From the NCBI RefSeq assembly GCF_000337775.1, contig NZ_AOLQ01000042.1:62001-126000 (forward strand): a DNA stretch of 64,000 bases, in the 5' to 3' direction. Position 1 is the first letter of the stretch, and the number at the start of each line of letters is the position of its first letter. The stretch comes from Haloarcula vallismortis ATCC 29715 (lineage in GTDB: Archaea > Halobacteriota > Halobacteria > Halobacteriales > Haloarculaceae). The notes below the pieces were generated by a model. It searched no databases and was not told the DNA's origin. It was given only the letters and a program-made list of their open reading frames with translations. Positions 26,567-31,012 of the stretch are shown one piece after another. The translations under genes and the position numbers were made by a program.

Positions 26567-26656
26567 GCCGTATCCAGACCTAACTGATACGCACCGTTTG
26601 TGTTCTGGTACGTATACTGAAAGCAACCTTTCCCATGGCAAGTGCCGTGGAACGGT

Positions 26657-29110
26657 ATGGAGAAGCCGGTCGGTGGAACGGATGAGAACGAACAAGCGGC
26701 ACGTGACACACCGGCACAGCAGTCCCCCCCTGTGCTGTTGGAGACGCTCGCCGCGCGAATGCCCGAGCCGGTGGTCGTTGCCGCCGCGAACGGGGAGATA
26801 CAGACCGGGAACGATCACCTCTGTGATCTCCTTGACTCAGACCCATCTGACATCTTTGGAAGCCGGATAGGCGCATTCTTCCCGGATTTGACTGACGTTG
26901 ACCTCAGGGCCCATTGCAGCCAGTCGCCGGGAACACCGCTGACGTCGTCGTGTTCTGCCGGCGACACGGAGCGGTGGGTCGAAATCGCCTTCGAGCCCCA
27001 GCAGTGGGACGGCGAGGAACTGTATCTTGGTATCGTCCACGACATCACCGAACGCCACGAGCGGACGGAGATGCTCGAACAGTACGAGCGCATCGTCGAG
27101 ACCATCGAGGACGGCATCTACACGCTCGACGAGTCGTTCACGATGCAGACGGTCAACAGCGCCGTCGAGTCGATGACCGGCTACGACAAGGACACGCTGG
27201 TCGGGTCGAACGCGACGCTGCTGGCGGACGAATCCGTTATCGAGGAGGCCGCGGAGATGTCACGGCAGTTCATCGAGGGCGAACGCGACGTGGGGACGCT
27301 GACGACGGACCTCAGAACGGCTGACGGGGACACGCTCCCGATAGAGACCAAGTTCACGACGTACGACCGCGAAGACGGGAGCTACCGGCAAGTCGGCGTC
27401 GTCCGTGACATCTCGGACCGGAAGCGGTTCGAGGAGACGCTCGCGGCGCTACACGAGTCGACCCGAAAGCTGCTACACACGGAAACGAAGACTGCCGTAG
27501 CAGAGCAGATACTCGACACCGCCGTCGGCGTGTTGGAGTTACCAGACGTAGAGATTTACCTGTTCGACCGGAGCGACAACACGCTTCGAAGCGTCGGCGA
27601 CGCCGAGACGGACCGGAGCGCGTCTATCGGACCGGGCGGGAGCACGGTATGGGACGTGTTCGTGCAAGATAGTCCGGTCGAAATTGCGCCTGGCGAACGC
27701 ATCGACCTCGGGGCGGGACCGGTGACAGCTGACGCGAAGCGACTCTGTCTCCCGCTCGAAGACCACGGCGTGTTCTACATCGAGCTGGGCGAGCAACACG
27801 GCGACACCAGAACGCGCGAGATGGTAGACCTTCTTGCCGCCAGTGCGGAAGCCGCACTCGCGCGCGTCGACCGCGAGACGACGCTCCGCGAGCGTGAGGC
27901 CGAACGCCGCGAACAGAACCGCGAACTGCGGCGGCTCAAGCAGGTCAACGCGATTATCCGCCGGATCGATCAGGTGCTCGTCGACGCGGAGACAACCGAG
28001 GAGATCGAGCAGGCGGTGTGTGACCAGCTGGCTGACTCCCAGTGGTTCTCTTTCGCCTGGCTCGGCCGACAGGATGCGACAGAACTCGTCCCCCGTGCGT
28101 GGGCGGGCGACACCGCGAGCTATCTGGACGCCATCTCGCTGTCGCTCGAACGCGATGGCGGACCGCCGGCCGTCCAGACAGCCCAGTCCGAAGCGATGAC
28201 CGTTGTCCCGTCAGCGGCCGACAACCTCCGGGGCGACCACTGGCGAACCGAGGCACTCTCCCGCGAGTTCCAATCGGCGCTCAGTATTCCACTTGAGTAC
28301 GACAGCTTCGTCTACGGCGTCCTGACAGTGTACGCCGACCAGGAAGGCGGGTTCGACGAGATGCTGCAGGAGGTGTTCGCCGAACTGGGCGAGACTATCG
28401 CAAACGCGATACGGGAGGTCGAATCCCGACAGCGACGGGCGGGCGACGGCACTGTCGAACTCGAACTGTCGCTGTCGGCCCCCCAGTCGTTCCTGACCCA
28501 CCTCGCAGACCGCGTCGGTGTCTCGGTCGTCTGTGAGGGGGCCGTCCAGCGCAGCGACGGTGCGATCCGTCTTTTCCTCGCTATTTCGGACTGTGACCCC
28601 GAGGTCGTCGAGGAACAACTGCTGTCGATGGCGCGCGTCGACACCGCGCGACCGATATCGACCGATCAGTTGGACGGGCTTTACGAGGTCGTCGTGACAG
28701 GCCAGACCGTCGCGGAGACGTTGCTGGAGCAGGGCGGGCGGTTGAAATCTATCCGAACGTCGACGGGTGGACTCACGGCGACGGTTGTCGTTTCGGGTGA
28801 AACCGATGTCCGACAGTTCGTCGAACAGCTCGGCGAGCGCTACGCCAACGTCACGCTGATTGCGCGCCGTGACAGCACACAGTCTGACAGTCAGCGAGAC
28901 GGGACAGTCCGGTCGGCACTGGAGGAGCAACTCACTGACAGACAGTTTGAAGTCCTCCAGACGGCGTATCTGAGTGGCTTTTTCGACTGGCCCCGAGAGA
29001 CGACCGGACAGGAGATCGCATCCAGCCTCGACGTGTCACAGCCGACGGTTAACCGCCACCTCCGCGTCAGCGAGCGAAAACTCCTCGAACTCGTGTTCGG
29101 GGATAGCTAA
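26657..29110 (+). CDS. Bat-like sensor/transcription regulator (PAS-PAS-GAF-GAF-BAT-HTH_10)
   Basis: The 817-residue protein contains PAS-like domains (about 30-145 and 145-260), a GAF-like domain (265-395), a coiled coil rich in Arg/Glu (395-430), a second GAF (430-590), a BAT domain (595-740) and the HTH_10 segment LTDRQFEVLQTAYLSGFFDWPR at the end (about 757-812). Bat-type proteins sense redox or light through PAS/GAF domains and bind DNA. It is an intact paralogue of the frameshifted gene at 13300-16096. ATG 26657 is chosen; an ATG at 26642 is in frame. Targets are unknown, with HalOD1 and terpene-synthase genes downstream. Confidence 0.88.
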   Translation: MEKPVGGTDENEQAARDTPAQQSPPVLLETLAARMPEPVVVAAANGEIQTGNDHLCDLLDSDPSDIFGSRIGAFFPDLTDVDLRAHCSQSPGTPLTSSCSAGDTERWVEIAFEPQQWDGEELYLGIVHDITERHERTEMLEQYERIVETIEDGIYTLDESFTMQTVNSAVESMTGYDKDTLVGSNATLLADESVIEEAAEMSRQFIEGERDVGTLTTDLRTADGDTLPIETKFTTYDREDGSYRQVGVVRDISDRKRFEETLAALHESTRKLLHTETKTAVAEQILDTAVGVLELPDVEIYLFDRSDNTLRSVGDAETDRSASIGPGGSTVWDVFVQDSPVEIAPGERIDLGAGPVTADAKRLCLPLEDHGVFYIELGEQHGDTRTREMVDLLAASAEAALARVDRETTLREREAERREQNRELRRLKQVNAIIRRIDQVLVDAETTEEIEQAVCDQLADSQWFSFAWLGRQDATELVPRAWAGDTASYLDAISLSLERDGGPPAVQTAQSEAMTVVPSAADNLRGDHWRTEALSREFQSALSIPLEYDSFVYGVLTVYADQEGGFDEMLQEVFAELGETIANAIREVESRQRRAGDGTVELELSLSAPQSFLTHLADRVGVSVVCEGAVQRSDGAIRLFLAISDCDPEVVEEQLLSMARVDTARPISTDQLDGLYEVVVTGQTVAETLLEQGGRLKSIRTSTGGLTATVVVSGETDVRQFVEQLGERYANVTLIARRDSTQSDSQRDGTVRSALEEQLTDRQFEVLQTAYLSGFFDWPRETTGQEIASSLDVSQPTVNRHLRVSERKLLELVFGDS

Positions 29111-29318: not shown

Positions 29319-29618
29319 ATGTCACAGGCAAAACTGGTCTACAGACCGACACCCAACGAACCGTTGAGCGAAACCATCGTCCACGCCGTGGCCGACACGC
29401 TGGGTGTCGACCCCGTCGACCTCGATGATCGAATCAGTGATTGTATCGACCCTGACGCGCTGGACCGGCTATTCCGTCCAAACACGGATCACGCTCCAAG
29501 TCCTGATGGGCTGGTCGTGTTCAGTATGGCGGGCTGTCGCATCGAAGTCGAGGGGAACCGTTCAGTGCTGGTGACACCGTCCCGTGACGTTTCGGCCGCA
29601 ACCGGACTCGAAGCGTAA
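29319..29618 (+). CDS. HalOD1 output domain protein
   Basis: The 99-residue protein is a stand-alone HalOD1 domain: LSETIVHAVADTLGVDPVDLDDRISDCIDPDALDRLF (as several short motifs), then DGLVVFSMAGCRIEVEGNRSVLVTP. HalOD1 is a haloarchaeal output domain of unknown mechanism, usually seen alone or with receiver domains. The start at 29319 gives MSQAKLVYRPTPNEP. Its neighbours are a Bat-like regulator upstream and a terpene-synthase-like gene downstream. Similar short words (TATACTGnnAGTGG) flank it at about 29229 and 29648. Confidence 0.85.
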   Translation: MSQAKLVYRPTPNEPLSETIVHAVADTLGVDPVDLDDRISDCIDPDALDRLFRPNTDHAPSPDGLVVFSMAGCRIEVEGNRSVLVTPSRDVSAATGLEA

Positions 29619-29876
29619 CTCGACACCACGGCTGTTCTGCTGGCGCCCTATACTGCGAGTGGTACTGCCGCTGACAGACGTATTATTGTCACCTTATTTT
29701 CCCTTCTGAGCTGTGCATCGATGGTAATTTTCAGTAAGTAGATATTTCTTTCACGGTAGCAATTTAAAAACTGGTACGTAACCTGAATTAAAACCGGTCA
29801 AATGCTTTGTTAACAGTACACTACTAGCAGGCTACGCGTCAGTACCACTATAAGCTCAACTTCGCCTTTCGAACGT
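29619..29876. promoter_or_regulatory. AT-rich promoter region of the sORF/terpene-synthase transcript
   Basis: This 258-nt stretch is clearly richer in A/T than the rest of the window (for example ATTTAAAAAC and GAATTAAAACC around 29760-29796). Nothing coding is seen. A TATA-like CTATAAGC (29848-29855) lies ~25 nt before the ATG at 29877. The length and composition suggest a regulated promoter or laterally acquired DNA. Confidence 0.5.
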
Positions 29877-30047
29877 ATGGACCTCGGACACCAACTGATC
29901 GAAACCGGCTCGCAGTCGGGCAAGAGCGCCAAGGCAGTGACCGTTCAATCCGGAGAAGTAGAAACAGCAAACCACCAGTTAATTTCACATTATTCGACTG
30001 ACTGTGCCGAGATACAGGGTGCAAGCGTCGGGGGGCAGTCACGATGA
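29877..30047 (+). CDS. 56-aa ORF coupled to the terpene-synthase-like gene
   Basis: The ORF runs from ATG 29877 (MDLGHQLIETGSQSGKSAK) to a TGA at 30045-30047 that overlaps the next gene's ATG (ATGA). Its start lies ~25 nt after a TATA-like box, so it should be the first, leaderless ORF of the transcript. The peptide is polar, with one Cys and several Ser/Gln, no membrane segment and no known family. It could be a real small protein or a translational coupler for the next gene. Confidence 0.55.
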   Translation: MDLGHQLIETGSQSGKSAKAVTVQSGEVETANHQLISHYSTDCAEIQGASVGGQSR

Positions 30048-31012
30048 GCGTCGAGTCACCTGCTGTTGATGCACAGAGCCTTCTCGAAGAGGTTCGGACA
30101 ACCAGCCTCCCGGACCAGGTTGCAGAACTGGCAGACGAGTACGAACGGGTCTGTGGCGAGCGTGATCGGTTCCTCTGGCAGTGGATCTACTCGCTGTTCC
30201 CTGAGTTTACTCTCTCCTCTGTCCATCCAGACCACGCGGACCACGTCCGGACGCAGAAGACGATACTCACGATGTACGTCACGATTCTGGACGATATCGT
30301 CGAGAACGACGGGGACCGAGACACCTTCGAAGAGGCCCGACGTCTCGTTCAGGACCCATCGGCCGTGGACCCGAGCCGTACCGCGGTAAGTGAAGAATAC
30401 TTTGCCTTTATCGAGCGTGTGTGGCGGGAGTTCGAGAGCGGACTGACTGACGCGCCGCGCGTCGACGAGTTCTACGACGTGTTCACCTACGATATGCGAC
30501 AGACGCTGAACGCGATGGACTACAGCGCGGTCGTCAACGAGAACCCCCGAATCGCGAATCTCAGCGGGGCGGAAACCTATGGGGCACATAACATGGTAAT
30601 GTTCCCCTACGCGGCTGTTGACCTCATGTATTCGCCGGATTTCGAGCTCGCCGATTACGGCACGGTTCGGGACCTCATCTGGGATCTCCAGGAGATGGCC
30701 CGGATCGGCAACTGGCTCACGACCTGGGAACGGGAGGTCAAAGAAGGTGACTACACCGCCGGGATCGTCGTGCTGGCCCTTCAGGAAGGGTTCGTCACCC
30801 CGGAAGAGCTGGAAAACCCGGATGGGAAAGCCGAACTCATCGACAAAATCAAAGCTGAACAGTTCGAGACCAAGTTCCGAGAGCGGTGGGCCGACATCTA
30901 CCAGTCCGTGCGTGACCGCGAGTTTGACACGGACAGCGTCGACCTCGACGCGCTGGTGCAGGGCATGGAAACCGTGTTCCAGTACCACGAGGCCAGCCGC
31001 GGACACAAGTAA
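30044..31012 (+). CDS. Class I terpene-synthase-like protein
   Basis: The 322-residue, mainly helical protein carries two metal-binding motifs in the expected places: DDIVE (residues 83-87, DDxxE type) after a helix TMYVTIL, and an NSE-like triad Asn223-Leu225-Thr227-Glu231 in IGNWLTTWEREVKEGD, followed by KEGD as in bacterial terpene cyclases. Their spacing of 140 residues is normal. The Arg expected ~46 residues before the NSE motif seems replaced (SGAETYG, 174-180). The substrate would be a prenyl diphosphate. The gene overlaps the 56-aa ORF by 4 nt. Function is an inference; a non-catalytic member is possible. Confidence 0.68.
   Translation: MSVESPAVDAQSLLEEVRTTSLPDQVAELADEYERVCGERDRFLWQWIYSLFPEFTLSSVHPDHADHVRTQKTILTMYVTILDDIVENDGDRDTFEEARRLVQDPSAVDPSRTAVSEEYFAFIERVWREFESGLTDAPRVDEFYDVFTYDMRQTLNAMDYSAVVNENPRIANLSGAETYGAHNMVMFPYAAVDLMYSPDFELADYGTVRDLIWDLQEMARIGNWLTTWEREVKEGDYTAGIVVLALQEGFVTPEELENPDGKAELIDKIKAEQFETKFRERWADIYQSVRDREFDTDSVDLDALVQGMETVFQYHEASRGHK

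Follow-up and report, generated by a model that had tools for sequence, protein, structure and literature searches.

Does a haloarchaeal gene that encodes both Mg2+-binding motifs of the class I terpene cyclases specify a working terpene synthase, and what is to be made of the sensory and regulatory genes that lie beside it? Terpenes constitute the largest class of natural products, and archaeal membranes are themselves built of isoprenoids, the lipids being made from geranylgeranyl diphosphate (GGPP). Terpene cyclases have nonetheless been regarded as almost absent from Archaea. The gene considered here occupies positions 30044–31012 of the window, the whole 64,000-nucleotide stretch of Haloarcula vallismortis ATCC 29715 DNA that was analysed; all coordinates refer to this window, and all features described within it lie on the + strand. 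The combined evidence from profile searches, structure prediction, comparative genomics and gene neighbourhoods suggests that the gene product is probably a signal-controlled terpene synthase.

Profile match, predicted fold and metal-binding motifs

The 322-aa protein matches the Pfam family PF19086 (Terpene_syn_C_2) with 34.5 bits against a curated cut-off of 23.7 (E = 2.3e-8), and the same profile recognises 38 of 78 diverse members of the synthase family at E <= 1e-3. NCBIfam contains no model that covers the protein, a sequence search of the PDB returned no significant match, and the PF03936 profile found nothing in this genome, nor in any of the control genomes, so that its silence carries no information. 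Fold comparison alone retrieved structural relatives. An AlphaFold2 model built from a 78-sequence alignment (pLDDT 94.8, pTM 0.92) consists entirely of helix, as had been anticipated from the sequence, and class I terpene synthases make up nearly all of its best 50 Foldseek matches in the PDB, at E 4.9e-5 to 1.7e-3, and every one of the 28 matches at E <= 0.001. The leading matches are 10-epi-cubebol synthase, hydropyrene synthase, geosmin synthase and aristolochene synthase. TM-scores are moderate (0.46–0.61), as expected at sequence identities of 10–18%.

Both metal-binding motifs are found where they were first read, and in the predicted model they lie on the helices expected for a class I terpene synthase. 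The Asp-rich motif D83-D84-I-V-E87, of the form DDxx[E/D] (codons at 30290–30304), closes the helix formed by residues 62–87. The second motif, N223-W-L-T-T227-W-E-R-E231 (30710–30736), is of the NSE/NTE type, begins 140 residues beyond DDIVE, is followed by V-K-E-G-D and is carried on helix 202–233, with a broken helix (173–184/186–195) between the two. Across 97 distinct haloarchaeal homologues, the DDxx(x)D/E motif is retained almost without exception (D83 in 93, D84 in 97, and E or D at position 87 in 97), as is the (N/D)xxx(S/T)xxxE triad (N223 in 97, T227 in 96, E231 in 97). Residues W224, W228, R230 and D236 are unchanged in 97/97, R40, W45, W47, D193, R209 and R220 are likewise invariant, and the family signature can be written NWxxTWxRE. 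The original prediction had proposed a profile search, a structure prediction and an inspection of D83, D84, N223 and E231 in orthologues as checks on its assignment of a terpene cyclase; a profile match above the cut-off, a class I terpene synthase fold in the model and the conservation of all four residues now support that identity.

The same observations bear on the idea that the protein is instead a trans-prenyl diphosphate synthase or a condensing enzyme of the squalene/phytoene type. Such enzymes belong to the same alpha-fold superfamily, and two prenyl diphosphate synthases do appear among the weaker Foldseek matches. The protein, however, combines a single Asp-rich motif with an NTE motif rather than carrying two DDxxD motifs, its Pfam match is to a terpene synthase family with none to PF00348, and its best structural matches are terpene synthases, which leaves a condensing enzyme highly improbable.

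Comparison with characterised PF19086 enzymes (the N-domain of geosmin synthase and the 10-epi-cubebol and hydropyrene synthases) reveals a common fold, an Asp-rich motif, an N-x3-S/T-x3-E motif with a basic residue before the Glu (here the invariant R230) and a length of about 320 aa. The family differs from these enzymes in its low identity to them (about 10–18%), in its sensor-linked gene neighbourhoods, in the Trp that replaces the usual Asp after the first Asn, at a non-ligand position, and in having neither a conserved Arg sensor nor an RY pair. Residues 170–184, the region in which an Arg diphosphate sensor would normally lie, include no conserved Arg (R178 is present in 31/97 homologues), the stretch of Sat1646 that aligns to this region contains no RR either, and the 97-homologue alignment shows no RY pair at the C-terminus. 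An earlier suggestion that the Arg sensor had been replaced thus holds in part: a conserved Arg appears to be missing from the expected position, but that position is variable and no single residue has taken its place.

Variability at the Arg sensor and C-terminal RY positions might also be accommodated if the protein had the terpene synthase fold but served for sensing or for simple diphosphate hydrolysis, binding prenyl diphosphates and reporting isoprenoid supply to the neighbouring regulator instead of producing a terpene. The window contains no tailoring enzymes and no dedicated prenyl diphosphate synthase beside the synthase gene, and this lack of tailoring genes, together with the constant company of regulators and the receiver fusions described below, fits such a role as well. 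Even very diverged members of the family keep all of the metal ligands, however, which a mere binder would hardly need, and R230 is likewise invariant among the 97 haloarchaeal homologues. A sensor or hydrolase is accordingly an improbable reading, and the protein is treated in what follows as a probable synthase.

Distribution and history of the family

Synthase homologues occur in 119 of 391 Halobacteria genomes (~30%), spread over 38 of 86 genera. Of the 32 genomes in the window's own GTDB genus, 19 have the gene, and the named relatives, at 92–96% identity, are Haloarcula species. Because the synthase is 92–97% identical across most of this genus and is old in Halobacteria, the lateral acquisition raised as a possibility in the original prediction would not have been recent, although the tree suggests transfer among haloarchaeal families.

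A phylum-wide search uncovered several further synthase families on the methanogen side, and diverged relatives are present also in bacterial MAGs and in one Methanohalobium MAG, whereas the viral contigs searched contained no relatives. MAG labels are unreliable guides to the host, as illustrated by the contig L188, which is named Lysobacteraceae yet has 30% G+C. Nearly all methanogen and bacterial relatives retain the metal ligands. In the diverged members from Methanosarcina-like genomes (L246–L252), these take the form DDSCD plus N-x3-T-x2-[RK]-E; the two of these proteins tested against Pfam, L246 and L249, were not recognised. The relative at L245 is degenerate. Separately, the MAG copies at L244, L253 and L254, all from one methanogen-phylum family, are split or broken by stop codons and are possibly decaying genes.

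Linkage of the synthase to Bat and HalOD1

Two regulatory genes precede the synthase in the window. The first (26642–29110) encodes an 822-aa Bat-type regulator with PAS, GAF, BAT and HTH_10 domains, identified by Pfam (BAT, PF15915, 2.4e-31; HTH_10, PF04967, 5.7e-19; plus PAS/GAF). The second (29319–29618) encodes a stand-alone HalOD1 protein of 99 aa (PF18545, E = 6.7e-23). The HalOD1 protein also has a sub-threshold match to the NCBIfam model for DdfA, a disk-determining factor (53.7 of 70 bits), a likeness through which a link to cell shape is conceivable.

Gene contexts were drawn from 161 loci, in 152 of which the synthase gene was located; 118 loci with synthases <90% identical to one another were kept, and neighbours were counted by offset. 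Full-length Bat-like genes number 30 at offset 1, eight at offset 2 and none at offsets 5–7, in counts that rest on heuristic gene calls and are not independent, related loci having inherited their gene order. In the synthase tree, the window protein falls inside a 43-member clade (support 96), and an orthologous Bat lies within three genes of the synthase in 38 of the 43 loci, divergently in 24, upstream on the same strand in 10 and downstream on the same strand in four. HalOD1 is present at 32 of the Bat-linked loci, and at 29 of these it comes immediately after Bat in the same orientation. All 37 full-length Bat genes beside other synthases fit the window's Bat better than seven same-genome paralogues, a result that holds when the comparison is length-matched, and the distance matrices of Bat and synthase agree closely in a mirror-tree analysis (r = 0.93; 0/2000 permutations). 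'Bat' matches shorter than 700 aa fit other paralogues or are PAS kinases and were not counted as Bat, and the neighbours at L121 and L158 were set aside on the same basis, the long neighbour at L121 fitting another paralogue weakly. The Bat/HalOD1-related control originally put forward is thus strongly backed at the level of gene neighbourhood.

It might be argued that the terpene synthase is active but belongs to ordinary secondary metabolism, and that its sensory neighbours are incidental, haloarchaea having many such genes. Bat, HalOD1 and PAS kinases are indeed numerous, with 18 BAT matches (~8 of them strong BAT genes) and nine HalOD1 matches in the window's own genome, and the Bat–HalOD1 pair persists at sites without a synthase. 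At four syntenic sites in the Haloarcula group (L209, L210, L211 and L214), the pair adjoins a LeuA/CimA-like gene and the synthase is absent; at two more (L212 and L213), Bat alone is kept and both HalOD1 and the synthase are absent. Retention of Bat at these six sites implies that it has a use without the synthase, and it probably either has other targets or the synthase-less sites represent recent losses. Against incidental proximity, ~8 strong BAT genes per genome predict a chance adjacency to the synthase of around 1%, the same Bat orthologue remains linked to the synthase in all three arrangements and across many genera, with matched distance matrices, and the enrichment is limited to adjacent genes.

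Promoter region and upstream small ORF

The interval between HalOD1 and the genes that follow is AT-rich, as the original prediction had noted for the promoter region, with 44.6% G+C in 29619–29876 compared with 62.9% for the whole window. Three elements of this region were followed through 15 close genomes (L001–L015, one being the window's own copy). A 56-codon ORF (29877–30047) overlaps the synthase start in an ATGA and is open in 15/15, with a length of 47–56 codons and a stop codon that always falls 4–11 nt past the synthase start. A TATA-like box, TATAAG (29849–29854), lies 23–28 nt before the ATG of the small ORF and is near-identical in 15/15 (CGTCAGTACCACT(A/T)TAAG or near), at a spacing appropriate to a leaderless transcript, whose predicted start would fall at about 29877. 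Farther upstream, about 100 bp before the small ORF, an invariant 15-bp element, AAAAACTGGTACGTA (29766–29780), is identical in all 15 and is a candidate regulator site. Its 14-bp core occurs only once in the whole genome, and the element is confined to near relatives. No DNA motif common to the upstream regions of all Bat-linked synthases was found, the top k-mers either corresponding to the ATGGCACAC start region or being restricted to relatives. A bacterial-type promoter scan was disregarded as not relevant to archaea.

The overlapping small ORF and its TATA-like box had both been predicted, and both are preserved in frame and position. Variable sites in the ORF are spread evenly over the three codon positions (22/27/26), however, so there is no sign that the sequence of the encoded peptide matters, and a conserved peptide is not supported. 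The ORF is probably a leaderless upstream ORF acting as a leader, at most a translated one.

Sensors at other loci and receiver–synthase fusions

An association of synthase with sensor extends beyond the Bat clade. At non-Bat loci, PAS/histidine kinase genes occupy 14 of 153 positions adjacent to the synthase versus 6 of 534 at a distance of 4–7 genes (p = 5e-6). With methanogen and bacterial neighbours included, the Pfam domain HATPase_c is found in 16 of 122 adjacent proteins versus no more than 2 of 105 five genes away. Kinase–synthase pairs occur in Methanosarcinaceae: six of the seven diverged synthases from Methanosarcina-like genomes come immediately after a PAS-HisKA_2 kinase gene in the same orientation, and the synthases at L246 and L249 both adjoin such kinases; at L238 and L239, a PAS kinase lies downstream of the synthase. 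Two low-G+C contigs from MAGs labelled bacterial place the synthase 6–32 nt before a 7TM histidine kinase. On one of them, L188 (195–5055), the synthase and its kinase, here divided among several ORFs, stand in a row with genes for a methyltransferase and a polyprenyl diphosphate synthase, an array that may represent a complete terpene operon; the contig also carries MraZ. No sensor adjoins the synthase in a large Natrialbaceae clade or in the methanogens L240–L243. These counts, too, are not independent, given the shared gene order of related loci, but the sensor partners differ between clades and the sensor theme recurs.

One further locus, from an unclassified archaeal MAG (L178, 6676–8960), has a FIST-domain sensory gene that overlaps the start of the synthase and is surrounded by TrmB-like regulators.

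In a few cases, synthase and signalling domain are joined in one polypeptide. A single ORF in L068 (the same locus as L159) encodes a receiver (REC, 8.5e-17), a HalX domain and a PF19086 synthase, and a single ORF in L154, from a Halodesulfurarchaeum MAG, encodes a receiver (PF00072, 3.4e-18) followed by the synthase (E = 3.7e-122 to the family profile). The L154 fusion is predicted to form two folded domains, an alpha/beta domain resembling a receiver and a synthase domain modelled with confidence (pLDDT about 97 for this part), along with a long helix. L157, cut by a contig end, begins with the apparent end of a receiver and continues into the synthase, and a PAS kinase adjoins both L154 and L157. 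Such fusions are rare: among the 391 genomes, only that of L068 has receiver sequence in an open frame with the synthase, and the window's copy is not a REC fusion. Long N-terminal extensions in L061, L063, L066, L067, L073 and L215 were rejected as fusions because they add no Pfam domain and/or have a basic, non-haloarchaeal composition, and the C-terminal extension of L170 was rejected on the same grounds.

These data return to the question of incidental neighbours. Several clades have no sensor beside the synthase, as expected of chance company, but the fusion of receiver domains to the synthase and the recurrence of the pattern in methanogens and on bacterial contigs argue against it, as does the Bat linkage. 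An ordinary metabolic synthase with unrelated neighbours is therefore judged unlikely.

Proposed mechanism and relation to known systems

The interpretation favoured here, with confidence somewhat better than even, is that the protein is a working class I archaeal synthase whose expression is switched by the Bat–HalOD1 pair and which serves as an effector of signal transduction. By its likeness to class I enzymes, we infer that Mg2+ held by D83/D84/E87 and N223/T227/E231 would allow the protein to bind and ionise an isoprenyl diphosphate, GGPP being the most likely substrate as the abundant precursor of archaeal lipids, and that the resulting carbocation would yield a terpene or terpene alcohol. 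A stimulus may be sensed by the PAS/GAF domains of Bat and could, by analogy with Halobacterium Bat, be redox, oxygen or light. The conserved linkage suggests that the HTH_10 domain of the regulator would act at the AT-rich promoter to switch synthase expression, the direction and nature of this regulation being likewise putative. The cue sensed through Bat, or elsewhere through a kinase, would then set the amount of terpene made. At other loci, the synthase would act as a signal-transduction effector, either in a pair with a PAS-histidine kinase or through fusion to a receiver.

A close precedent is the Halobacterium bop cluster (bat, brp, bop, blp and crtB1), in which Bat activates bop at low oxygen and is encoded near crtB1 (PMC2253796); for this reason, redox or light is a reasonable first guess for the stimulus. 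Both systems place a Bat-type regulator near an isoprenoid gene, crtB1 encoding phytoene synthase, but the bop cluster is directed at bacteriorhodopsin and at carotenoid/retinal synthesis, whereas the window locus pairs Bat with a class I terpene synthase and HalOD1. Response regulators of REC-HalX architecture are established in archaea (PMC5847659), and the N-terminus of L068 has the same receiver and HalX domains, differing in the synthase fused behind the receiver.

Haloarchaeal genome papers report 'terpene' clusters (PMC8600319), and a 2024–25 preprint by Samusevich et al. (bioRxiv 10.1101/2024.01.29.577750), as cited in PMC12797696, reports terpene synthases in Archaea, to which extent it parallels the present family. 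The synthase itself thus adds a member to a class already known. Its conserved linkage with sensors and the fusions to receivers appear undescribed so far as can be judged from a literature search for terpene synthases with receiver domains, which returned nothing relevant and whose scope excluded preprints and many journals; the string 'terpen' is likewise absent from the main text of a 2018 census of archaeal two-component systems (PMC5847659).

A broader and more tentative proposal, somewhat less likely than not, is that signal transduction in archaea has terpene synthesis as an output: a synthase domain under the control of Bat/HalOD1, histidine kinases or direct receiver phosphorylation would make a diffusible terpene serving as a signal or stress metabolite, a form of two-component output for which the literature searched gave no description. 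The family as a whole is present in ~30% of the sampled haloarchaeal genomes and in Methanosarcina, whose good genetics make the terpene product and its use directly testable. Sensor-linked or fused relatives in haloarchaea, methanogens and a few bacteria suggest that the terpene is made in response to a sensed signal. If this is true, the sensor pairing and the fusions to receivers would place terpene production among regulated responses, and archaea might use the terpene to signal chemically to one another.
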